Shown: positions 4,746 to 44,350 of the stretch, one piece after another
Layout: each line of letters begins with the position of its first letter
How positions within the stretch are numbered: the first letter of the stretch is position 1
From: Lepisosteus oculatus
Lineage: Eukaryota; Chordata; Actinopteri; Semionotiformes; Lepisosteidae
Direction of reading: 5' to 3'
DNA length: 64,000 bases
NCBI RefSeq assembly: GCF_040954835.1
Contig: NC_090698.1
Span: forward strand, 33,409,501-33,473,500
Translations under genes and position numbers: made by a program
Notes under the pieces: generated by a model
Told to the model about the DNA's origin: nothing
What the model saw: the letters and a program-made list of their open reading frames with translations, nothing else
The model's database searches: none

Positions 4746-5577
4746 TAATTCTGTAAGTGTTTGTGTATTTTAATATTTCTGTTTTAGTGCAAATCCAACT
4801 ATATATAAAAGCATTCTTTTCACTGAGGAAAAGAATTTAACTTTTAGAGCCTTAGTCATTACTCTTAGTCTTTCTACAGATGCAGCCATTCAAAATGGGT
4901 GGGGTATTTCGTGGCATACCCCAGTGGGTGTGTCGCGGAATCACGCAGAATCACGCGGTATCGTGCAGTATCACGCGGTTAATCGCATCATTTGACGTCA
5001 TGCCGGAAACTATCCGGCGTCACCTTGTAAAACCGCCAGGGGGAGCTTAACCTCTCATGTACAGCATTTGAGCTTTTAATTTTGAACTGTGTATTACAGC
5101 ATGTTAATCATCAGTCATTAAAATGTTGGTATATTTTATGAAAGCAAGATTGCTCAGTTGGACAAAAGTACACAACCTACCTTTATCAGAAATATTTATG
5201 CATCAAAGCCTTTACCGAAGATATTACTAATAGTATTAATAATGAATGACTTTGGACAAGCTGTATACTCAAAGTATAATTTCTTTTGCACATTTGTACA
5301 AGCACTTGGAATCTGTCCAAGCCATACTTTGTCAGGCATTTTGTTTTACTTCAACGGGCGTTTCATAATTTCTAACTACGAAAATGATTTAAAATGCGAC
5401 ACTTATCATTCAACTCAAAATATCACAAGGATCCTCAAGAGCACAGCAAAGACTGTATTAAAAGATACTTCTATGAGATACATGAGAATCCAAGCTTTTT
5501 TATCAACGCTTTCTTTTCCGTATACCAGATTTTATGGAACCACTTCAGAAGGGTGTAAGCCAGTCAGATTCCAGGAA

Positions 5578-7190
5578 TTGGTACTTTAAAGGAAAAATAC
5601 ACACTGGTATTCCATTTCTCCCTAACGATTTTAAGCATCGAAGTATTTAACGAGCATGTGAAATAGCGTGTGAAAAAGTGGTAGTTTTAAGCTTTTCTGC
5701 TAATATAATATGGAATCGCGTATCTAAAGAATTTAATAACGATATGATTATATTTGTGTACTGCGACAGGGCTGTGTAGGGCTGTTTCGCCTCCCTGTTC
5801 ATGCGAGCTGTCTTGTAGCCTACTGGTCTATGTGTTTGACTAACAACTGGCAGGTTGTATGTTCGAATCCAGCTGGTGCTAGACTTTTCTTTTAACAAAC
5901 ATTTCTTCGAAAAAATAGAATAGCGATATTATGGACAATCAATTGACTTTTATATTTCAAAATATCGCAACATGATCGATTCTAAGTCATTTTTGATAAC
6001 AATGAATAGTCACCTTCTTCCCTTCTGACAACGGTCCCTGCTTCTGCTTCCTGCTTCTATTGTGTGTGTGTGTGTAATAGAGTAAATTTTTATAGAGAAA
6101 TGGAGGCTGGACAGTATGCGTTACAATATAAACATTTATATCGATTTAAATCGTGTTTTGATTTAAATTGCAAATGCGTGTTTAATTATATGTGTTTTTT
6201 TCATCATAATCAGGCTAATGCAACATAAATTGATACAGTATCTTTGTCTTCTAAGTATCTTAATAAACTTTCAGCATAGCTTTCTACCCATTTAGATTTA
6301 TATTTCTTGGGATTTTGGGATCAAACATGGAAGGATTAGATTGTAATCATTTTTATTTTTCAAATACGTTTTAGAAAGGTGTAATCTATACCTGCCCAGA
6401 CTGTACGCCTTCCTAAACCCCACCTTTCACTCCTGTCCTGCTCTTCCCCGCGCACCCCAGCCGGGCGCTCTTCGGCCTCTGCCCGGGACGAATGTATATT
6501 TTGATATTTACACCCGGCGCGGCACCGAGGGAGCGTCTGCATTTATAACTTAGTTTTTAAAATTAGTCAAGCAATATGAAGCATCTCCTTTTACTTTTAA
6601 GTCCCTTAAATACATTGAGCACAGCTTTCTCACCACTTAAGATTACTTTTTGATACCATCCTTACACAAAGCAGAAACGTTCCGATGACATACAGTACAA
6701 GTGGAAAGATTACAGATTTTAATCGTCTTTAATTTTGTTACGTTATACGTTTTAGGAACGTTTCATTTAAACAAACACCACAAAACTATTCTCGATTGTT
6801 TTTCTGAATGTTATGTTACACCTACAGTAGTTCACTGCTTTGAATACATCGAATTAAGAAAGTTAGGTGTAGCACTTTAGATCTTTTTTTCTGAACCAGG
6901 GAAAATCTGATCATGTTTCTCTATAACAATAATAAAAAACTTTATTTTACATATCACCTTTAAAAGTGGCATCTCAAAGCAATACAGTAGATTGAAAAAC
7001 AGTTAAAAGTGACCAAATTAAATACCAGACAAATGCAAATGCGTTTTTAATAAAATGCTTTTATTCATTCAGCAGAGAGTGAGAGGGACACCCAGCAGAG
7101 AGAGACACGCACACCGGTTTCCATTGACAAAATTGTTTTTTTTCAATTCCTCTTGTCTAACAGGAATGTTTTGTTTTTGGACAGACTGTT
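5578..7190 (+). repeat. Left arm of long inverted repeat
   Basis: This is the reverse complement of 10121-11670. In 6360-6545 against 10741-10926 I count four differences in about 187 bases, so the arms are recent or homogenised. It contains a tRNA-like sequence (5815-5884), a TG microsatellite near 6061, a GC-rich block near 6400-6545 and, on the minus strand, AATAAA near 7057-7062. That signal lies just downstream of the BEN-like gene's stop codon, which falls on the arm's inner edge. Confidence 0.85.
5815..5884 (+). repeat. tRNA-like (Pol III promoter) sequence, left arm
   Basis: The 70-nt block has an A-box-like TAGCCTACTGG and a B-box-like TGTTCGAATCC with tRNA-like spacing, but no clear full acceptor or anticodon stem. 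It is likely a tRNA-derived SINE head or an element promoter, not a functional tRNA. The counterpart is 11363-11432 on the other strand. Confidence 0.6.
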
Positions 7191-7535
7191 AGACTAGAGA
7201 AAAAGAGCGCCTCCTTCTACGAAGCATTTCGTTGATCCGATCACAAATTCTTTTCCAGTCGCACGAAGTAAGGGTTGAGAATCTCCAATTCACCATGCTA
7301 CTAATGGTTTCCCAGAGATTGCAAGGCAAGGCACTTTTGCCTCTGGACCCATCGAAATTTACAGACGTGGTCCACCCCCAGTAAATTTCAAAAGTCACAA
7401 GATTTCGAAACACGAGGGCGGCGTAGCGGTCGGCTCTTGCTTTCCCCTCTATGCCGATGCACTGCAAGTACAACCCCCCCTCCATCTCCTGAGTGATGGG
7501 TAACAGTTGGATATCTGGGAGAATTTTTCGTCCCA
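7189..7535 (-). CDS. BEN-like gene, proposed exon 4 (BEN-like domain)
   Basis: The acceptor is cacagacgccag, with a weak pyrimidine tract. It encodes 115 residues from GRKILPDIQLLP to the stop at the arm boundary. The last 50 residues (GKSALP...ISSMV...DWKRICDRINEMLR) fit the C-terminal helices of BEN domains. Confidence 0.5.
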
Positions 7536-8232
7536 CTGGCGTCTGTGAATTCCGCTATGTAAAATTCCTGCGCGGTGGTGAGCGAGAGGCCGGGATGCAG
7601 TGTCCTGAGGCGGTGTGTGCTCTGCAGGGGGCAGAGCTTCTGCCAGGCATTGCAACCCGCGCGGCTGGGAGAGGCACTTTTCGGGAGACAGCTGTTCAAC
7701 TGTTTGACTGCTGGAACATATTGTCTCCTTACTTTGCATTTTCAGGAGTGTCTCTAGCCTCCCAATCCTTCCCAGTAATGCATCGTACTGCTCCCGCTGC
7801 TGCCGAAATGTTTCCATACAGGTGCTGCTTTTACAGGTTGGCACCCTGGCCAGTGGCCGAGAGCAGAGACCCACGGCCTGTGGCAAAATAACATAATTCA
7901 TGTAAGAAATAAAGTCACACAGTAGTATTCATCAGTCGTGGAACAGACGTCAAAATAAACTTTTCTTTTTTTCCGTCTTACCGCCTTCTTTTTTGCTGTC
8001 CTGGTGGTAGATTTCGAAGATTGTTTCGCCCGTACGGTGTTTTCTTGAAGAACAGGCTACGAAGAAATAATTAGAATTGAATTTAAAATTCAAAACGGCA
8101 ATAATACCTTGTAATATGCGCTGTAATCGCGTATTTCAGATGAAGTCTGCTGTATTTGCTTACCCTTCGCTCTTTGGAAACTGGGGCGGCAGAAGCACCC
8201 CGTCTCTTCCCGTAAAAGGTCTTGGTCTCCAT
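7189..8232 (-). CDS. Element-borne four-exon gene with a BEN-like C-terminal domain
   Basis: Proposed exons on the minus strand are 8164-8232, 7982-8056, 7733-7877 and 7189-7535. All introns are GT..AG and phases match (0, 0, 1), giving one 211-residue frame with the stop at 7189-7191. The third join makes the codon ATG. Order: a basic N-terminus (KTFYGKRRGAS, then KSTTRTAKKKA, nuclear-signal-like), a short coiled coil (EQYDALLGRIGRLETLL), then a C-terminal domain with KSALPCNLWETISSMV and DWKRICDRINEMLRRRRR. That spacing resembles the BEN domain, a DNA/chromatin-binding fold. The start is uncertain: the frame also opens at an ATG at 8376. AATAAA lies about 130 bp after the stop, in the left arm. 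The function is inferred only from this weak domain match. An intact frame across four exons inside a repeat suggests recent activity. Confidence 0.6.
7733..7877 (-). CDS. BEN-like gene, proposed exon 3 (coiled coil)
   Basis: The acceptor is attttgccacag and the donor is CAAA|gtaagg, ending in phase 1. It encodes ETFRQQREQYDALLGRIGRL, a heptad-like helix. The frame stays open to 7449 if the intron is retained, giving a different C-terminus without the BEN-like part. Confidence 0.55.
7982..8056 (-). CDS. BEN-like gene, proposed exon 2
   Basis: The acceptor is tttcttcgtag and the donor is GCG|gtaaga. Exactly 25 codons, phase 0 at both ends, rich in Lys, Ser and Thr (KSTTRTAKKKA), suggesting a basic nuclear-localising segment. 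Confidence 0.55.
8164..8232 (-). CDS. BEN-like gene, proposed exon 1
   Basis: ATG at 8232 opens METKTFYGKRRGAS and the exon ends GAGCGAAGG|gtaagc, a consensus donor in phase 0 after 23 codons. The same frame extends upstream to another ATG at 8376, so the true start may be earlier. Confidence 0.55.
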
Positions 8233-8501
8233 ACTGTACTGTGGTTGCTGTAGTGCAGGTTCGCAGTTTTTTTTGTGATGGGAGCTCACCCAATCCCTTG
8301 GTGTATTTATGCTATATTCACATGTACGGCTAGAATGTTTATTGTCTTCCAATGAAAGGCGGGTGCCTTTTGCCAAAGTCGGGAGACATTAGAGGCTTGC
8401 CACACCCGGACTGTTAAACCAACGCATTAGCACGTCAAAGCCCATTGAGGACCCGGGCGCAATAGTTGTTTTGTCCCTTGATTTACTGATCTGCATTAAT
8501 T

Positions 8502-8699
8502 ATGGAAATCGAGTTCCTGCTCTTTGCAGACGACCTGGTCCCGCTGTCGCCCACAGAACAGAGGCTGCGCCAGAACCTGGCACTGCTGGAGAAGCACTGT
8601 CAGACCTGGGCGCCGACAGTCAATCTGGACAAGACCAGAGTTATGGTTTTCCAGAAAAAAAGCCAGACCTCAGGGAAACAGGTACAAATTCACACTTAA
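8502..8699 (+). pseudogene. Non-LTR retrotransposon reverse-transcriptase fragment
   Basis: The open frame contains LLFADDLVPLSPTEQRLRQN and later TVNLDKTRVMVFQKK. FADD is the RT catalytic aspartate pair, followed by the usual LINE sequence around the thumb. Only about 65 codons remain with no endonuclease or 3' tail, so it is a captured fragment inside the composite element. The clade cannot be fixed. Confidence 0.7.
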
Positions 8700-8881
8700 C
8701 AACACATTAACACCTAACAACGGGAGCAGGGACGAATTAGGCCAGTACCCACTATTGTTAAACATACAGAAAAGAATATTAAAGTATTGAAGTATTGACT
8801 TTAGTATTAGCCATACAGAACATTAAAGTGCCCCTTTTCCATTCAGCGAGTGCCTGAGCCGCTGTGTCCTATCTTCTGACA

Positions 8882-9062
8882 GTCGCCGTTGTGAATGTCT
8901 GTAGAGTGTATCTTATTTTTAGTACTATATTTTTGCATTATATTCCCTATTAATCAAACTCTAAGAGTATGTATCGGCTTGTCCCCTCCTCCCGCCCCTC
9001 TCTTTGTACAGTAGAGCCTCCTGTCCAGCCAGCACATGTCCACAGACATTCACAACAGCGAC
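8882..9062. mobile_element. Small inverted-repeat element (MITE-like), about 180 bp
   Basis: The ends are 21-bp inverted repeats differing at one base (gtcgccgttgtgaatgtctgt at 8882-8902; complement at 9042-9062). The interior is AT-rich with no coding potential. No clear target duplication was found. Confidence 0.5.
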
Positions 9063-9478
9063 ATATCATAAAACATTTGCACATATAGATAAATTATTAG
9101 TTGTTTTTCAGGAAGTTAAAAAAAACACTTGAATTACTTATCCAGTCTCTCGAAATAAAGTTATTTTTCATGCAATGCAACAAATGTCGGGCAATGTTTT
9201 TTTAATCCAGCCACATCTTAAATCTTGTCAGTCAGCTCTTTTTTCTCTATTTCAATTGTGGCTTACACATCACACGACTTTAAAAGCTAGAAAGACAGGT
9301 TTTGATTCACATTAGCTGGCGAGCCTTGTTAACAAAAAAACAGACAATACTCAGGGAGGGGGAGGTCAAGCCAGAGAGAGAGTTTTTTACCCTCTGTCAA
9401 AAACCCAAATAACCTGGGGCAGAGACTCTGGGGGGATCATTGCGTGGTACAGAGTGGAGCTAAGTCAATTCTTATGGA

Positions 9479-10085
9479 ATGTGTTTTCTTTCTTTTTTTC
9501 AGCATGGAATAAACCTGTTACTTGATTCATATGGATGCCCGGTTCCGCCGGGGATTCAAAACATTTTTTTTTTTTTTTTATCGGGTATCAAAGGGAATAG
9601 GCAGTATAACCCTGTTCATGCACAAACTGTGGCATGTTACATTGATTTGGGTGTCTCCTCTTGCCAGAAAGCTCTAAATTGCATTTTGAGTGCGGTTTTT
9701 GACACAATGAACTGCGCCACGAAACTTCTTCGAGGAAGTCGTGGTCACACAGCATGCTGCCCCATATATCAGGGAGCAGTTTGGATCAAGGCAACGTCTC
9801 TTTCAAGACAACGATCCGAAACACACAGCAGCAAGGGCGGGCTTATAGCAGAAGGAGTGAACTGGGTGAAAACTTCAGCCGAATCCCAGATCTAAATCCG
9901 ATAGAGATGGTTTGGCATTCGTTGAAAGACTATGTTCGGAAAACTGCTAAGCCCGTCACAAAGCAGGAACTGATCGATATAAATTCTGGGAGGAAGAACT
10001 GACCGAATAAAATTGTAACAATTTTATTAACAGGCTGTTTCGTGTTCTTCCTAGGATTGTTGACCGGGGCGGGGGACATTCGGGA
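9479..10085 (+). pseudogene. Degraded Tc1-type transposase
   Basis: Pieces in shifting frames resemble a Tc1/mariner DDE transposase. There is a QDNDPKHTA-type block near 9810-9830 (frameshifted), then EGVNWVKTSAESQI and DLNPIEMVWHSLKDYV (9890-9935), and a C-terminal FWEEELTE interrupted by a stop near 10004. It runs into the right arm. It may be the remains of the composite element's own transposase. Frameshifts and stops make it inactive. Confidence 0.65.
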
Positions 10086-10120
10086 ATGTAAGTCTGAGAA
10101 AGACAGTCTCACGTTTGTGG

Positions 10121-11670
10121 ACAGTCTGTTCACAAACAAAACATGTAAAAAAAATGTAAAAAAAACAATTACTTTTTGTCAATGAAAACCTGTGTGTGTG
10201 TCTCTCTCTGCTGGATGTCCCTCTTACTCTCTGCTGAATGAATAAAAGCATTTTATTAAAAACGCGTTTGCGTTTGTCTGGTATTTACTTTGGTCCCTTT
10301 GAACTGTTTTTCGATCTACTGTATTGCTTTGAGATGCCACTTTTAAAGGTGATATGTAAAATAAAGTTTTTTATTATTGTTATAGAGAAACATGATCAGA
10401 TTTTCCCTGGTTCAGAAAAAAATACATCTTAATTCGATGTATTCAAAGCAGTGAACTACTGTAGGTGTAACATTACATTCAGAAATACAATCGAGAATAG
10501 TTTTGTGGTGTTTGTTTAGATGAAACGTTCCTAAAACGTATAACGTAACAAAATTAAAGACGATTAAAATCTGTAATCTTTCCACTTGTACTGTATGTCA
10601 TCGGAAAGTTTCTGCTTTGTGTAAGGATGGTATCAAAAAGTAATCTTAAGTGGTGAGAAAGCTGTGCTCAATGTATTTAAGGGACTTAAAAGTAAAAGGA
10701 GATGCTTCATATTGCTTGACTAATTTTAAAAACTAAGTTATAAATGCAGACGCTCCCTCGGTGCCGCGCCGGGTGTAAATATCAAAATATACATTCGTCC
10801 CGGGCCGAGGCCGAAGAGCGCCCAGCTGGGGTGCGCGGGGAAGAGCAGGACAGGAGTGAAAGGCGGGGTTTAGGAAGGCCTACAGTCTGGGCAGGTATAG
10901 ATTACACCTTTCTAAAACGTATTTGAAAAATAAAAACGATTACAATCTAATCCTTCCACGTTTGATCCCAAAATCCCAAGAAAAATAAATCTAAACAGGT
11001 AGAAAGCTATGCTGAAAGTTTATTAAGATACTTAGAAGACAAAGATACTGTATCAATTTATGTTGCATTAGTCTGATTATGATTAAAAAAACACGATTTA
11101 AATCAATATAAATGTTTATATTGTATCGCATACTGTCCAGCCTCCGTTTCTCTATAAAAATGTACTCTATTACACACACACACACAATAGAAGCAGGAAA
11201 CAGAAGCAGGGACCGTTGTCAGAAGGGAAGAAGGTGACTATTCATTGTTATCAAAAATGACTTAGAATCGATCATGTTGTGATATTTTGAAATATAAAAG
11301 TCAATTGATTATCCATAATATCGCTATTCTATTTTTTTGAAGAAATGTTTGTTAAAAGAAAAGTCCAGCACCAGCTGGATTTGAACACACAACCTATGAG
11401 TTGGTAATCAGGCACGTAGACCAGTGGGCTACAAGGGAAGTCGCATGAAGAGTGAGGTGAAAGAGCCCTACACAGCCCTATCGCAGTACACTAATATAAT
11501 CATATCGTTATTAAATTCTTTAGATACATGATTCCATATTATATTCCCTTTTAATCAAATTCTAAAAGTATGCTTGTTGACTCCAGTATCTCTTTAGTTA
11601 AAGACTTCGATGCTTAAAATGTTTAGGGAGAAATGGAATACTGGTGTGTATTTTTTCTTTAAAGTACCAA
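10121..11670 (-). repeat. Right arm of long inverted repeat
   Basis: Inverted partner of 5578-7190. It holds the complementary CA microsatellite near 11171, the GC-rich block at 10741-10926 and a tRNA-like sequence on the minus strand (11363-11432). AATAAA at about 10240 could serve transcripts entering from the Tc1-like remnant. Open frames here, such as 10744-10926, mirror the other arm's repeat sequence and are not convincing genes. Confidence 0.85.
11363..11432 (-). repeat. tRNA-like (Pol III promoter) sequence, right arm
   Basis: Reverse-complement partner of 5815-5884, with A-box-like TAGCCCACTGG and B-box-like TGTTCAAATCC. About a dozen of 70 positions differ between the two, clustered in the middle where an anticodon arm would be. 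That is more than in the GC-rich part of the arms. Confidence 0.55.
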
Positions 11671-11999
11671 GACCAGCCATATACTGTATGTTTATGTTCC
11701 AAAATTAACATTTCACACGCCTTCACATGCGTTACAGTATGCTCCTATTCTTTTTATGCTTAGCTACTAAGATTTCCCTTCAGTGGTCAAATTCAATATC
11801 TACAACGGGCACAGTAAAGACGTTTACTGTGCGTCTTTCTACGACAGATCAACGGACCACGAGTGCCCCTGTCGGCCAACCAATCACGTACCGCGGTACC
11901 CCGCGTCATCTTGCGTCACGATGTGCGACGCCGTAGCCAATTACCTCCGGTACGTGTCTGTACTGCGCACTTTGAATGGCTGCATCTGTACATCTCTAG

Positions 12000-20538: not shown

Positions 20539-20665
20539 GGAGAATGTCACATCTGTGACAGAATCTGTGACAGAATCTGTCACAGAATGTTGAGCCATCT
20601 CCTGACCCCGCGAGCGGCGCTTTTTGTTTTTCGGCATTGTTTTGGGCCTTTTTTTCAGTTCTCCT

Positions 20666-20960
20666 ATTCTAATTGCGGGATGCCACTCCCGACATCCGTG
20701 CCTGTGAGCGGGTCATTCAGTGGTATGCCTTTCTGACATCCACATACAAATACCTGGCTTTCCTCGGGTTGTCACACGGTATCCGTGATAGAATGTTGAG
20801 CTTTTTTTTTCCGTTCTCCTATTCTTGTTTCTGGATGTCATCTCCCAACATCCGTACCTGTGAGCAGGTCATTCAGCGGTATACCTTTCCGACATCCACG
20901 TATGGTTACCTGGCTTTCCTCGGGTTGTCACCTCCCAGCATCAGCAACAGAATGTTGAGC
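20666..20960 (+). repeat. Tandem repeat of about 150 bp, two units
   Basis: The units at about 20666-20820 and 20821-20960 share acatccgt.cctgtgagc.ggtcattcag, tacctggctttcctcgggtt and agaatgttgagc. A partial earlier copy of agaatgttgagc lies near 20583-20595, suggesting a third, eroded unit. Confidence 0.65.
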
Positions 20961-21373
20961 ATGTTTTTGCCCAGTTTGCAGTATTTTACTACTTTTGTTC
21001 CCAGGTTTTTTGTTGTTACTTTGTTTTTTCTCTTGGTGTTTTGGTTTTTCACTTCCCAGTTTCCCTGTTCTCTCATCCCCCCGACCCCTGTTTCTTGGAA
21101 CTCTTGGTTCCTATCTGTTGTGTGTGGTTTGTTACCCTGGTCTTCCAGGTTTATTTTTGTTGTGTGTGTTTTTTCGTCTCGCTCCCCGGAGCCCTCCCCA
21201 GGCCCCCCTTCCTCTACCCAAAAAGGTTTTTACCATGGAGGAAGGGGTAGCTCTCAGCCGTGGACTCCTGGAGGTTTCCTTTCAGTTAAATGAGGTTTTT
21301 TCTCCCCTCCAGAGCTGTGCAGCTAATTTGTTTTTTGGGCGTCAGGAGCCACATGTGAAGGGGGGGGGGGTAC

Positions 21374-21673
21374 AATCACACCATCTACAACTAGAGGGCG
21401 CTCCTACTCTGTCCTGTCCCTAGTTTCCCTGTGCTTTCCTTGTCCTTCCGGTATGTCTTTGTCTGGGGCTTTATATTTCCGGGTCACTCTTTCCTCCTCG
21501 CTCAACATTGAGGGATCGGATGTCCTGAGACCCGCCTAGCACCAGGTCGTCTCCTCTGCAGCTTGAGAGCATAGTTTTCTACCCGACATTGTCTGACCTT
21601 CTAAACCCAGACTTTCTCCATGTCTCGTTGCTCCGCATAGGTTCTTTTCTCGCTCTCCTGCCATTCCACGGCA
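21374..21673 (+). repeat. Right LTR of the nested element
   Basis: Direct repeat of 20245-20538, starting aatcacaccatc (the terminal TG is eroded) and ending near ccattccacggca. Confidence 0.65.
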
Positions 21674-21717
21674 TGCCTTTCTGTGAGAGTTGGCTTTGGA
21701 ATCACTCCTGGACGGCA

Positions 21718-21946
21718 TTCATTACTACCCACAGTCAGTATGAGTACCAAGTAATGCCTTTTGGACTGGTGAATGCTCCTGTTGTCTTTCAGGGTTTCAT
21801 GAACAACATCTTTAGGGATATCTTACACAAATATGTCCTGTTATACCTGGATGATATTCTAATATTTTCCCCCAGTCTCCAGGATCATATATCCCACATG
21901 CGTGAGATTCTTAACCGTTTAATAAAGAACAAGCTCTATGCTAGAT
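21718..21946 (+). pseudogene. gypsy RT palm domain
   Basis: The open frame reads [18 protein letters not shown] then [17 protein letters not shown] is the catalytic aspartate pair. It ends at a stop near 21946, before the RT connection and RNase H regions. Confidence 0.88.
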
Positions 21947-22094
21947 AAATGCACTTTCCACGCATCCAGAATTCACTTCCTCGGCTACATCATCTCACCC
22001 CTGGGCATTAAGATTGACCCAAGACTAACTCCATAAAGAATTCATTTCATTCCCCTCCCTACTCTTCCATCCGCTCAAGAAATGGACGATCTCT

Positions 22095-22433
22095 TTGTTC
22101 TTCACATCTTCAGACTCCATGGCATTCCTGCAGACATCGGATCGGAAAACGCAATTTATTTCTAGATTTTGGAGAGCCTTTTGCAAATCTCTTGGAACTT
22201 CCACATCTCTTACATCTGGTTATAATCCCGAAGGTAATGGGCTTGCAGAAAGAAACAACCGAGACCTTTTCACTTACCTCCGAGCATACGTCTCTGCTTC
22301 ACAAGACGACTGGGTCTCTCTCCTCCCATGGGCAGAATACGCACATAACTCTTTTTCTTATTCCACAAGCAGGATGTCCCCCTTCTATTGCTCCCTAGGA
22401 TACCACCCCCCCCCCCCCCTCTCCTGGACTTAA
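22095..22433 (+). pseudogene. gypsy integrase core fragment
   Basis: Contains FISRFWRAFCKSLG, then SGYNPEGNGLAERNNRDLF where the glutamate is the E of the D,D35E triad, and WAEYAHNSF. The upstream zinc finger and first aspartate region are missing, so it is not functional. Confidence 0.85.
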
Positions 22434-26628: not shown

Positions 26629-26987
26629 TCAGCAGAGCCTGCCAATGTCATTCTTAGTGCAACCCTGATTGCAGCACATTCCTGCCAAGCCCACTGAAAA
26701 GTTCCTCTTCCTCCTGGGGGACTTCAGCCAGGGGATGTGAGGACTGTTGCCCACTTTTTCAGTAGTCTGTAACTTCTGCTGCTGCCTGAGCTCTGACACC
26801 TGCTGCAGGAGCTCTCCGAGGTCATCAGGCACTGACTCATAGTCACTGTAGACGCCGTACAGGCTGACAAGGTCCTTCAGGGATAGCTGCGTGATGGGCA
26901 GGGGGGGTCTTTCCAGGATGGACTGCAGTCTGCTCAGACTGTCCTCACCTTCAGGGGCGGTGTGGAAAGCAGAACCCAGGGGCAGAT
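26629..26987 (-). CDS. rln: Relaxin exon 2: C-peptide and A chain
   Basis: The acceptor is ccttttttcaccag. It encodes the rest of the C-peptide with a helical Q-rich part (ELLQQVSELRQQQKL), RRKR cleavage, and the A chain with CC..C....C spacing (MCCNQGCTKNDIGRLC), then TGA at 26629-26631. Confidence 0.95.
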
Positions 26988-29773
26988 CTGGTGAAAAAAG
27001 GAAATGGCCACTGACTAAGGAGAGGCATCAAACATTGCCTCAAGAGTAAGTTTACAGAATTTACATGCGGCCATGGTTATTTAACTGACTGTAATGTCAC
27101 CTGAACTAGAAAGGTTATCTTAGTAGTTTAGGTTTATTTAGTTTGTAGTGACTGGAATTCTCCATGATGAATTTTGAAGCATTTTGTACAATATGCAACT
27201 AATATTCTGAAAGTAATGGTAAAATTACTGATTGTAAATACATTGAGACATATAGTGGTCCATTTTTGTTTTTATTTAAATGTAACGTTTTGGCCACTTG
27301 GATGAACTACAATATATTTAAAAAACAAAAGGTGGGGATAGCTCTGCAAACACCCCTAAAGCTTTTTCCAAACATTTTTGTAAACCTTGTGCAGGTGTAA
27401 CAAACAGTGTTGTTAACAATCTATGAAGAGCTTTGTTAAGGCCTTGGGGCAACCTTGTTTTGAAAGGCACTATATAAAAATAAATTATATTGAATTGAAA
27501 AGAACTAAGAAATTAAAACTCAAAAAGTTTTAACCCATCATATAATACCATTTATATTTCCACATTAATGTTGGATTCCAGATATTATTAAATGCCAGTA
27601 CACCCAGCATGAATAGGCAAAGATGAAATAAAAATGGAATAAGTTTAATGAGCTCCATTGACAGATTCAAAACGCAGACCCTCATTCTTCTCAATAAGGA
27701 ACTGTTACAACTGGTGACCACCATTGATGTACTGTATAGTACACATGGAACTATTGATTACATTTTAAAATAATGGCCATAGATTCCAGCAAGATAATAC
27801 AGGAAAATATTCTAGATAATGCTCTCTCCAAATGTATGTAAATACTGACTCAATAACCAAATATTGTGAGGTATTACCAATGTATTATCTTGTAGGTGTT
27901 AATTAATTAATTCTTAATATTATTATTAATTTATGCAAGTACTCGCTCATTTTTCTATGTCAGTTTTATCTCGTACATGTTAGACATGTGACACCACCAG
28001 CCTATTCGAAAAATGAGAGAAGTGTCTTTGAAAACAAGGAAAAGATTTCAGTTGCTCATTATCAGCAAAATAATCCATTAATTATCAGAAAGCATGGTTT
28101 TTATTTGAAGGATTTTAAGGGTTGTGAAGCGGGATGTTATTAATCATAACTTGGGACATGATCAACTTAATGATAATAATTAAAGAAGTTTTTTAAATGA
28201 GCATATTTAGGCAGATAAGTGAACTTGCAAGACAAGCAAAGATGTTGTTGCTAAAAAGCTAACACTTTCAACTATCAGAACAAGAAACACATATTCAGAA
28301 GAAAAGGTAGATTATGTATACACTTTACAAATACCCACGATTTGTGTGGCTGTCCTGTATGGATGGTATGGATGGATGGACACAAAATTAATTAATCAAA
28401 TTAATTATGTCTATTTTAAGGAAATTCTGTTCAAGTACTGAAGCAACTTTAATTTTCAGAACCCCTACCAAAACATAAATTTAAGATAAAATAAATACAT
28501 GCAGGATTAAAATCAACATTAGTTAAATTATTTTAAAGCACGTTTTATTAGTATGAGGTTAAATTGGACCAGGTTTATCCTCTGTATTAAAAAAACGTTT
28601 TCGCCGGTTTTGCTATTTGCAATTTCGTACGGAAGCACCCTTTACCCTTATGTGTGAGTGGAACAAATTTACTGTACAATCCAAGGTCGTTAAACGAATC
28701 TTCTTCTTACAAATTCAGATTACTGGTTGTTTTCTCAGATTTAATATCGTTCATGGCTTCAAAGCCAAGGACAGTCCTGCTGCTTTACGATCAATGTTTA
28801 GTCTAATTTATCAAAATGTATAATTATATCAAGGACGACGTCATTATCGATAAAAATATCAAATTACCTTATTCTGGACAGCAATTTAAAATTTCTAGAC
28901 AATTTATCCTCAAATTTACTCAAACAATGACAGGTGATGAGTTTAGGCGTTTTAACGAGACAAAAAGTTTAAGAAAATGTGTTCTACATAATATCCTGTC
29001 TGTAACTGCAATATAACTCACTAGGTTCGAATTCTGTCACAATGACGTATTCTCTTATCACAATATACACAAAGCATTTCACGTAGAAAACAATGTTTGA
29101 AGTTGAGGTACAACATGACTTTTTTTCAAAACCGAAAGAATGATCTTTACGTTTTGCATTTTCATTTATTGAATTCATTAAATTATTTTAAAATCATAAA
29201 AATTACAAGCAAAGATTTTGAAAATTAAGAAAATTGTTTAGATTTTGGAAGTTGTTTAATGATAAAAACCTTTTGATTTTTGGTTTTCAGAAGAAAGAAG
29301 TCTACTGAAAGAGCCATAACATATTGTAGTGTGTACTGTAATGTGCCATTTCAGTTACTACACATACCATTGACACATAGTCATTCATTAAAACAACAGC
29401 GCACTGCATTAGTTTGTACTGAGCTGAACGCAAAACAGTCAAGTGGGTATTTAAAAAGATGTACTGTAGATATAAACACCGGTAAGTCACACTCTATGTC
29501 TACAGAACACGTTCAAACACAAACTTTATAAATCCTAGTACTCAAGTACTCACTCTTCTCGATGCCTAAAGGTGAATCCGAGTCCTCCGAAAGCCTTTTC
29601 CATCTTGAACCTCCGCAGGTGAATATGACGGCTCTGATAAACTCTCTGCCACACAGCTTCACCCCGTATTCTCTTGTCAAACCTCCCTTGCTCACACCTT
29701 GCGCTCTGGCACCCAGACACATGCTGCCAACACACATTAGAAACACAGACAGCAGCTTTAACATTTTAACCAA
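26629..29773 (-). CDS. rln: Relaxin-family prohormone with relaxin-3-type B chain
   Basis: Two exons, 29554-29773 and 26629-26987, spliced GT..AG in phase 1 as in other insulin/relaxin genes, give 192 residues plus TGA. Order: signal peptide (hydrophobic MLKLLSVFLMCVGSMCLG), B chain with GVKLCGREFIRAVIFTCGGSRW-type sequence, KR cleavage, a C-peptide of about 100 residues, RRKR furin-like site, A chain NFSVGLAGMCCNQGCTKNDI ending RLC. The six cysteines sit as required for two inter-chain and one intra-chain disulfides. RxxxRxxI (REFIRAVI) is the RXFP-binding motif, and the B-chain GGSRW end is typical of relaxin-3. It is a secreted hormone acting on RXFP receptors. Position downstream of JAK2 and beside PLGRKT fits the RLN1/RLN2 locus; the copy keeps the ancestral relaxin-3-like B chain. 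A second start (MLKLL) lies three codons in. Confidence 0.95.
26988..29553 (-). other. rln: Relaxin intron, with an L2-like 3' tail
   Basis: About 2.6 kb, AT-rich. On the plus strand 27420-27490 reads gagctttgttaaggccttgg, then gaaaggcactatataaaaat and attgaattgaa, the 3' end of an L2/Maui-like LINE. Frames at 28617-29016 lack recognisable motifs and I do not call them genes. Confidence 0.6.
29554..29773 (-). CDS. rln: Relaxin exon 1: signal peptide and B chain
   Basis: ATG at 29771-29773; the exon ends GAGAAGA|gtgagt, phase 1. It encodes the signal peptide, B chain (cysteines in KLCGREF and IFTCGGSRW) and start of the C-peptide after KR. The upstream region to the TATA-like box at 30061-30067 would be 5'UTR and promoter. 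Confidence 0.95.
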
Positions 29774-41575: not shown

Positions 41576-44350
41576 TTTATTTTATATAGCGCCTTTAAAG
41601 GTGGCTTCTCAAAGCACTTTACAGAATGAGAACAACAATAAATAAAAAGAATACACAAGATAAAACACAATTACAATATACAGAGGAGACCGTGGATGGT
41701 GGTACTAGGAAAAGCAGGGGGGTGAAGAATGGAACCAGTTAAGTAAAGGCTCTTCTAAAGAAGAAGGTTTTGAGTCTGGATTTGAAGGAGTCTAGAGAAG
41801 GTGACTCTCTGATATCCTTGGGCAGAGAGTTCCAGAGCTTGGGGGCATAACAGGAAAATGCCCTGTCACCCATACAATGTAGACAGGCTTGGGGGACAGT
41901 TAGGAGACCAGAATTAGAAGAGCGAAGGTTGCGAGGTGGGGAGTAAGGCTATAATACTTCAGACAGCTACTGAGGTGCCAAGCCATTCAGAGCCTTATAG
42001 GTGAGCATGAAGATTTTAAAGTCCACAAGGAATTTGACAGGAAGCCAGTGCAAAGACTCCAGGATAGGAGTAATGTGATCACTTGCACTAGACCTGGTCA
42101 GGATCCTGGCTGCTGAATTTTGGACATACTGCAGTTTGTTCAAAGTAGATTTAGATACCCAAGCGAGTAGAGCATTACAGTAGTCAATTTGAGAGAACAC
42201 AAATATTTTGATCAGCTTTTCAGTCACAGTTAGTGATAGCATAGGGAGTAGTCTGGTGATATTTCTGAGGTGAAAAAAAGACGTTTTGACAATATGCTGC
42301 ACATGTGGGTCAAATGTTAAGCCATAATCGAATATCACCCCAAGGTTTCTCAATTTAGACTGAAGCTCATCTAGTACAGAACTATCTACAGACAGGGTTA
42401 CAGGATTGGCTTTATGAAGTTGATGGGGGGTGCCAATAAGCATGTCTTGTCAAAGGTAAGATGAAGCAAATTATTAAGATGAAGTTTTATGTCAGAGATA
42501 CAATTAGATAGAATAGAGACAGCCACATCAGTGTTTGGTATGGGTGTATATTTGAGTATCATCAGCATAGAATTGATAGCTGAGGCCATGTGATCTTAAA
42601 AGCTGACCAAGTGGAAATATGTAAATGCTAAAAAGCAAGGGGCCCAGTATTAAGCCCTAAAGAACACCAGACTTAACAAGGCCAATTTCAGACCTATACC
42701 CGTTAAGAGAGTCAAAGTGACAGCGATCACTGAGAGCAGTGTCAGAAACTCCAAACACAGTGTCAAGATGAGAAAGTAAGATGTCATGGTCATCAGTGTC
42801 AAAAGCAGCACTGAGATCAAGAAGGATGAGTAAAAGTTCTAGAAAGAGAACCAGAATCAAAAGCTATTAGAAGATTGTTAGTGACTTTGATCAGGGCAGT
42901 TTCTGTGCTGTGAAGTTGACGGAAGCCAGATTGGAAGGGTTCAAAAAGGTTATTTGTCATGAGGTGGTTATTTAACTGAAATGTGACAGCGCGTTCTAGA
43001 ACTTTTTGCAAGAAATGGAAAGTTGGAGATGGGGCAAAAATTGTTAAGATTGTCGAGAGCCATGTTAGGCTTTTTGGCACAGGAGTAAGGGCAGCAGTTT
43101 TGAGGACCGTTGGTACAATGCCAGTGCTCAAGGATTCCTTTATAATATTGAGGACAATAGGACAGAGAGAAGAGAAACAGGACTGAAATAAAGTGGTGGG
43201 AATGGCATCTAAAATAAAAGTGGTGGGTTTCATGTGTTTAACTAGTTTATTGTGGGATGTTGAGTCAAGAAGAGAGAAGCTGGAGAGAAGGGAACCACAA
43301 GTTGGATAAGGAGGGAGGAGGTATGGAAATGATATGTGTAGCGGAGAGAGTTGTCGATCTTGATGCTAAAGACATCTAAGAATGTGTTGCAAAGTTGTGA
43401 TGAGGCAGGTAATGTGGTGGGGAAGTTTGGCTTTAGCAAGCTGTTGATGGTGGAGAAAAGATGTCCGGGGTTGTCATGGTGATTTTCAATTATGTGAGAG
43501 AAGTAGGTGGATCTAGCAGACTCTATTGTAACCTTATAATCTCTCCAAGCCTGATAAATGTACATTTAGGTCAGAAAGACGCCACCTACGCTCAAGTTTG
43601 CGGGAGGCTGCCTTCATAGATTGCAGATGGTCGATGTACCGGGGGGGCAGGGTGAGAGGAGATGGTTCGAGGAGCAAAGATGTCGAGGGTAGATAAAAGA
43701 ACACTGTCAAGTAACTGTATTTTGTCCTCTAGACGGGCAGAGGTAGAGAAACAAGATAAGGAGGACAGAACAGAATTTGCAAGCCTTGGGTGATCAATTG
43801 ATCGCCAGTTGCGGAAATTTACAGAGCATGAGGGGGAAGTGTTAGAAACAGGTAATTCCATATTGAAAAGAATAGCTAAGTGGTCAGAGAGGCCTAGATC
43901 AAGGGAAGCAGATTAGGGGATAGAGACATTTAAAACAAGGCACTCAAAAGAAGAGGGAGGAGGTATAGTAATAGGAATAAAATTGTAAAAAAGGTTGCAA
44001 ATAACAATGATGCCCCCTCCTCTGCCTGAGAGACGCAGAAGGTCAAACAAACCATACCCGGGGGGACTAGTTGGTTAAACAGCAGTCCATCATTTTGTCT
44101 GTGCCAGGTTGTGGTTAAGCACAGAAGGTCCAGATTTTTTTCTTTGATAATGTCACATAAAAGAAGAGCCTTGTTGTTTATTGAGCGGGTATTGAGTAGC
44201 ACTGATCAGGCCAGTCTCGGGGATGCAGAGGGAAGTGGAGTGCGCTCCAGGTGCGATAGTAAGAGAAGATTTTTTAGGTCGGCGCCAGTACGGGATGGAC
44301 TTACAGTCATGCGCTGAAAGGCGAGGATAGAGACTCTATTGGCAGACGAA
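41576..44350 (-). mobile_element. L2-type LINE, near full-length but broken
   Basis: Minus-strand frames in ORF2 order: endonuclease piece at 43930-44202 (LLNTRSINNKALLLCDIIKE, NLDLLCLTTTWH); RT fingers near 42817-43233 (FLQKVLERAVTFQLNNHLMT, FQSGFRQLHSTETALIKVTN); LLDLSAAFDTDDHDILLSHL near 42780-42840; YADDTQI-type palm near 42545 (frameshifted); C-terminus at 41967-42443 (LGVIFDYGLTFDPHVQHIVK, RITRSSASDHITP-type). The motifs place it in the L2 clade. Several stops and frameshifts make it inactive. Ends in the microsatellite at 41473-41575. Confidence 0.85.

Follow-up and report, generated by a model that had tools for sequence, protein, structure and literature searches.

Transposons of the Tc1/mariner superfamily are usually short, 1–2 kb in length, and carry one gene, that of the transposase; this is a typical trait that does not define the superfamily. 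The superfamily is not known to need an accessory factor, and a limited literature search brought up no such case. PIF/Harbinger elements are characterized by a DDE_Tnp_4 transposase and a 3-bp target site. PIF/Harbinger is reported to require both its transposase and a second element-encoded protein for mobilisation (PMC2836001), Bari, a Tc1-type transposon of Drosophila, occurs in forms with long and short inverted repeats (PMC4877112), and the long inverted repeats of Galileo, a Drosophila transposon of the P-element superfamily, recruit internal sequence, with chimeric copies being ascribed to recombination (PMC3573991). The window analysed here, a stretch of 64,000 nucleotides on contig C3 of the 1.2-Gb genome of the spotted gar (Lepisosteus oculatus), contains at 4877–11988 a real element with exact 18-bp ends flush with TA, inverted arms of about 1.6 kb and two genes between the arms. 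It very probably belongs to a gar family of cut-and-paste transposons of the Tc1/mariner superfamily that carries a second, accessory gene, the window copy being decayed and non-autonomous, and it is best filed as an oversized, two-gene, palindromic and somewhat unusual variant of Tc1/mariner.

Like other Tc1/mariner elements and the Tc1-like elements of fish (zebrafish si:dkey-77f5.3-like transposases, Sleeping Beauty), the gar element has a TA target, a short terminal inverted repeat (TIR) starting with CAG and a DDE_3 transposase. Unlike them, it has an additional spliced gene, a transposase gene that is interrupted by an intron, internal inverted arms of 1.6 kb, a spacing of 32 instead of 34 residues from the second to the third catalytic acid of the transposase, and a size of 7–8 kb as compared with the usual 1–2 kb. 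The two fullest copies, L017 and L023 (copies are referred to by locus numbers), thus depart from the pattern of one transposase gene in a short element. The long repeats of Bari are terminal, about 250 bp long and placed around one transposase gene, whereas the gar arms are internal. Galileo has a transposase of another superfamily, while the gar arms lie inside distinct end regions, and Pfam scans of the transposase copies and the accessory protein gave no match to a P-type transposase with a THAP domain. PIF/Harbinger likewise uses another transposase family, whereas the gar element has DDE_3 and TA, and its second protein matches no known domain and is at most a putative partner. A large multi-copy vertebrate Tc1/mariner family with a second gene in constant arrangement, a transposase intron and recombining arms shows how such elements grow and reshuffle.

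Ends, copies and layout of the family

The 18-bp sequence TACAGATGCAGCCATTCAAA is present without mismatch at both ends of the window element, as the initial annotation had stated. These ends, written CAGATGCAGCCATTCAAA, occupy 4877–4894 on the plus strand (the L end) and 11971–11988 on the minus strand, and adjoin the TA target-site dinucleotides at 4875–4876 and 11989–11990; with the flanking TA included, the inverted terminal pair 4875–4897/11968–11990 extends to 23 nt at 96%. Two kinds of end region beyond the TIR, L and R, are found in the family. The L-type region of the window copy (4877–5577, plus strand, about 700 bp) has no counterpart beyond the TIR at the right end, which is formed by an R-type region (11671–11988, minus strand). 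Short subterminal tandem repeats with a period of 10/20 at 4934–4979 (plus strand) are possible protein-binding sites. The end regions enclose the left arm (5578–7190, plus strand) and the right arm (10121–11670, minus strand). In the proposed mechanism, the transposase would act on the short TIRs and insert the element at TA.

At least 61 stretches of the genome match the left arm, 41 being long ones and the window's own counted; these are lower bounds because scoring covered 40 of the 6915 first-look candidates. Stretches of 8.4–9.6 kb were fetched around 20 left-arm copies and mapped against the window element and markers. A TIR scan of L009–L048, allowing up to 3 mismatches and keeping segmental duplicates in the count, recognised 47 ends, 45 preceded by TA and 2 by CA. 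For the two-ended set, the window and 12 of the 20 fetched copies were tabulated, and L009 was dropped as its second end was not found, leaving 12 distinct copies; the duplicates L012, L021 and L027 and the not simply pairable L013, L014, L020, L022 and L028 were omitted. TA stands on both sides in 11 of these 12, the exception being L017 with CA on one side. Other copies thus share both ends, in agreement with the earlier proposal of one mobile unit with TA sites and a spliced non-transposase gene. The locus is not an assembly artefact, a concern raised at that stage, because the same element parts are found again on many contigs.

The unit repeated in the gar genome has fixed TA-adjoining ends, a DDE_3/Tc1 transposase and, in many copies, the accessory gene. 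In the fullest copies, L017 (7383 bp) and L023 (8186 bp), each with two genes, an 18-bp TIR and an end region are followed by a 1.6-kb arm and by the accessory gene, which faces this arm. Beyond the central spacer come the Tc1-type transposase gene with its two exons, facing the opposite arm, then this second, inverted arm, the second end region and the closing 18-bp TIR. The long imperfect inverted arms and the many rearranged copies resemble what is described for Galileo (PMC3573991) and would suit a foldback-type element in which the arms are the true termini and the Tc1 transposase is a mere passenger. This explanation is highly improbable: the boundaries of the copies are the 18-bp TIR and TA, about 320–700 bp outside the arms, and L016, which has only one full arm, still has both short ends.

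The central spacer between the divergent genes (8701–9700) holds a 24-nt inverted pair (8882–8905/9039–9062) and is the presumed promoter region. Beside it, at 8490–8700 on the plus strand, lies a fragment found in many copies; its peptide FADDLV... (at about 8490–8700), judged by eye, looks reverse-transcriptase-like (RT-like), and in the single scanned family copy overlapping this region no Pfam family was matched. Both the RT-like fragment and the spacer with its inverted pair are also present in other copies, and therefore go back to a source element instead of having been picked up later by the window copy. Of the spacer contents listed in the initial annotation, the spliced gene (with three exons) and the Tc1 remnant were borne out, while the RT label is tentative and has no Pfam match behind it.

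Several copies deviate from the full layout. In L009, L011–L013, L015, L016 and L024, the transposase part is replaced by about 2–3 kb of rearranged pieces that stem from the arm, the spacer and the 5' region of the transposase and are in part inverted, and this stretch is alike in several copies. L026 and L027, duplicates of one site, are each bounded by two R-type ends. Related TA-adjoining ends with different subterminal sequence occur near copies at L015:1373, L016:8465 and L022:781, two of them with altered TIRs, and possibly represent an older sister family. A 123-residue open frame across the joined flanks of L015 has no Pfam match, may be due to chance and was not counted.

Transposase and accessory gene

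The full-length transposase, read in L023 and L014, is encoded by two exons with a short intron between the central spacer and an arm. It matches DDE_3 in Pfam (E 3e-17), together with a weak Tc3-type helix-turn-helix match below cut-off, and Sleeping Beauty is its sole match in the PDB at E 0.001 (structure 5cr4, E 8e-16). Its closest relatives among the best 120 of 928 matches are Tc1-type proteins of fish and Xenopus, and in a tree of 84 of these proteins it groups with sequences from zebrafish, croaker, Polypterus and Xenopus in a clade of 19 rows (support 100/100). In L023, 32 residues and not 34 separate the second and third catalytic acids. This spacing occurs in 16 of the 19 rows of the gar clade, the other 3 having 34, and is confined to that clade in the tree. 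Among 122 proteins, two accessory ones included, 71 have 34 residues followed by E, 19 have 32 followed by E and 4 have 32 followed by K, and 28 were unreadable by the patterns. A literature search for 'DD32E' together with Tc1 returned no paper. One relative, P0005 of Larimichthys crocea, has an annotated BESS-like tail (Pfam BESS E 0.0096, below cut-off); this could point to another kind of second gene next to the relatives in fish, or to an error in the gene model.

The window retains a transposase remnant at 9726–9978 (plus strand), corresponding to positions 425–679 of the 695 positions of exon 2, whereas the preceding part of this exon and the whole of exon 1 are absent. Because fuller copies carry the full gene at the same place, this remnant is the family's own transposase, which settles the earlier choice between original transposase and passenger in favour of the former. 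The genome contains at least 104 transposase places (104 scored of 6573 candidates), 67 of them without a stop in the match, and exon 2 is open and in frame in 17 of 25 copies. Exon 2 variants common to several copies give an omega of 0.43 (P 0.0035, 25 copies), or 0.42 after removal of duplicates (P 0.0065, 20 copies), as compared with 0.71–0.77 for single variants, and show signs of purifying selection.

The accessory gene lies on the minus strand and consists of exon 1 with the ATG (8164–8232), exon 2 (7982–8056) and exon 3 (7189–7877). The exon borders were read from the sequence and agree with the annotated gar protein P0001. Relative to L011, the window's exon 3 lacks 44 bases and has 7 extra, which breaks the frame; exon 3 is open and in frame in 7 of 12 copies, the window not among them. 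P0001 has 286 residues with basic ends, and its predicted model, of low confidence, contains a helix at 63–98; the AlphaFold models of the accessory protein (mean predicted local distance difference test scores of 34.5 and 37.0) are too poor for use. A word-based search of limited reach in a database of 5.8 billion proteins found only two matches to P0001, both from gar, and residues 165–286 alone retrieved the identical two. Nothing convincing was found for P0001 in Pfam, NCBIfam or the PDB. A BEN domain (Pfam PF10523), considered because of a resemblance, gained no support, as P0001 has no Pfam match up to E 10 and none in the PDB that would bear it out. A limited literature search on BEN domains in transposons and Tc1 brought up only work on lateral transfer in Lepidoptera.

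Accessory gene places number at least 136 (136 scored of 3407 candidates, chosen by similarity), with no stop in the match at 95 of them. An accessory gene was scored within 7 kb of 20 of the 104 transposase places, and the geometry of the two genes is fixed wherever both were scored: upstream accessory genes are divergent from the transposase in 19/19 cases and downstream ones are on the same strand in 6/6. Five transposase places have accessory genes both upstream and downstream, so some copies have an accessory gene on each side of one transposase.

Several observations weigh against the reading of the window as a copy of a two-gene transposon family. Most of the tested transposase copies were chosen by protein similarity, a choice that favours intact frames, and the copies chosen by the arm alone (n = 4, with 2 shared variants) are too few. 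The accessory frames are broken in both of the fullest copies examined, L017 and L023. Shared variants of the accessory gene have an omega of 0.65 (P 0.10, 15 copies), or 0.58 without the L014 duplicate (P 0.057, 14 copies), neither of which is significantly below 1, and of 0.95 over the last 81 residues; purifying selection on this gene is not established. In addition, 84 of the 104 transposase places lack a scored accessory gene nearby, so that the gene seems often lost or dispensable; this figure overstates the absence, as it compares the best 104 of 6573 transposase candidates with the best 136 of 3407 accessory candidates.

These omega values and missing neighbours, together with the captured RT-like fragment beside the accessory gene in many copies, are what would be expected if the gene were a passenger, trapped once in a source transposon from the host or another element and without a role in transposition. 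Such an origin has an even chance of being correct. The stop-free accessory matches, though from places chosen by similarity, the splicing of the gene, its constant layout beside the arm and the lack of a host parent in the protein database, within the reach of that search, point the other way. A genuine two-component Tc1/mariner transposon, with the accessory protein as dedicated partner of the transposase and the arms as a flip switch setting which gene adjoins which end, is unlikely. The protein may be a DNA-binding or regulatory helper, as suggested solely by its basic ends. If it were a true partner, Tc1/mariner, which is not known to need an accessory factor, would have one here, and over a hundred natural copies are at hand for deciding between partner and passenger.

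Arms and orientation of the interior

The two arms of the window (5578–7190 and 10121–11670) are 89.4% identical over 1622 aligned columns; identity in ungapped blocks reaches 98% in one of 668 nt and goes down to 89% in one of 291 nt. The previously reported rate of about four mismatches in 187 bp therefore holds for the best core (668 nt) but not for the whole arms. In blocks of 100 bp, the core (5878–7077) is 94–100% alike between the two arms, and the medians against 18 other aligned arms are 94–99%; outside the core, the outer 300 bp of the window arms are 81–84% alike and the last inner block 86%. As core identity is much the same between the arms of unrelated copies, it is a property of the whole family and does not date the insertion in the window, contrary to the earlier suggestion of a recent insertion.

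Both genes stop near an inner arm border, and each arm contains an AATAAA, at 7060–7065 on the minus strand downstream of the accessory gene and at 10241–10246 downstream of the transposase. The arms may thus serve as shared 3' ends for the two genes.

Arms with recombined outer and inner parts, and interiors in both orientations, occur within the family. The outer 300 bp resemble the matching window end in 22 of 23 non-window arms with a known end, one arm of L025 being the exception. The inner 150 bp resemble the matching window gene side in 20 of the 24 arms with a known neighbouring gene, accessory gene fragments being counted as accessory side; the exceptions are L018, one arm of L014, L033 and L043. 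The arms thus appear to recombine, the outer part following the end and the inner part mostly following the gene. The flanks assign L012 and the right-hand portion of L014 to the L011 site, and L021, L039, L042 and L044 to the L018 site. After collapsing of duplicates, 7 of the 12 distinct copies with assignable orientation have the window-like arrangement (window, L011, L015, L016, L017, L035 and L041), whereas in 5 the interior is flipped with respect to the ends (L018, L019, L022, L023 and L025).

Crossing-over between the arms is the simplest cause of these inversions and would have turned the interior within a single element. It counts against this reading that all flipped copies may go back to a single event or ancestor. 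Alternatively, ends could have been exchanged between different copies by ectopic recombination or conversion, which the likeness of arm cores across copies would allow. L014, on contig C14, has two L-type ends and mixed flanks, the right one 98% like the L011 flank and the left one 79% like the L018 flank; it has the appearance of a recombinant of two insertion sites, which end exchange would give. As the general source of the two orientations, however, this exchange is rather doubtful: in L023 the two ends have changed places together, the R end being next to the accessory gene and the L end next to the transposase, for which one inversion suffices, whereas end exchange needs two events.

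Contig C14 (60 Mb, 5% of the genome) holds 33 of the 104 scored transposase places and 38 of the 136 scored accessory places. Five fetched C14 loci (L018, L021, L039, L042 and L044) have a common flank that is 98–100% identical over 300 bp, which makes segmental amplification on this chromosome likely. A limited literature search gave no link of C14 to sex.

Other features of the window

ARAGORN detected no tRNA in the element, and no Rfam family matched at gathering scores anywhere in the window. An open frame at 26629–27027 on the minus strand ends in ...NFSVGLAGMCCNQGCTKNDIGRLC; this C-terminal part looks like a relaxin/insulin-family A chain, with a Pfam Insulin match of only E 0.055 and no match in the PDB. 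The minus-strand segment 34504–35055, with a match to HTH_Tnp_Tc3_2 below cut-off (E 0.0034), is a probable remnant of another Tc1-type transposase. By eye, the open frames 20649–22433 and 41967–43365 look like polyprotein fragments of long terminal repeat (LTR) and non-LTR retroelements, and a 156-bp tandem repeat is present at 20649–20972.

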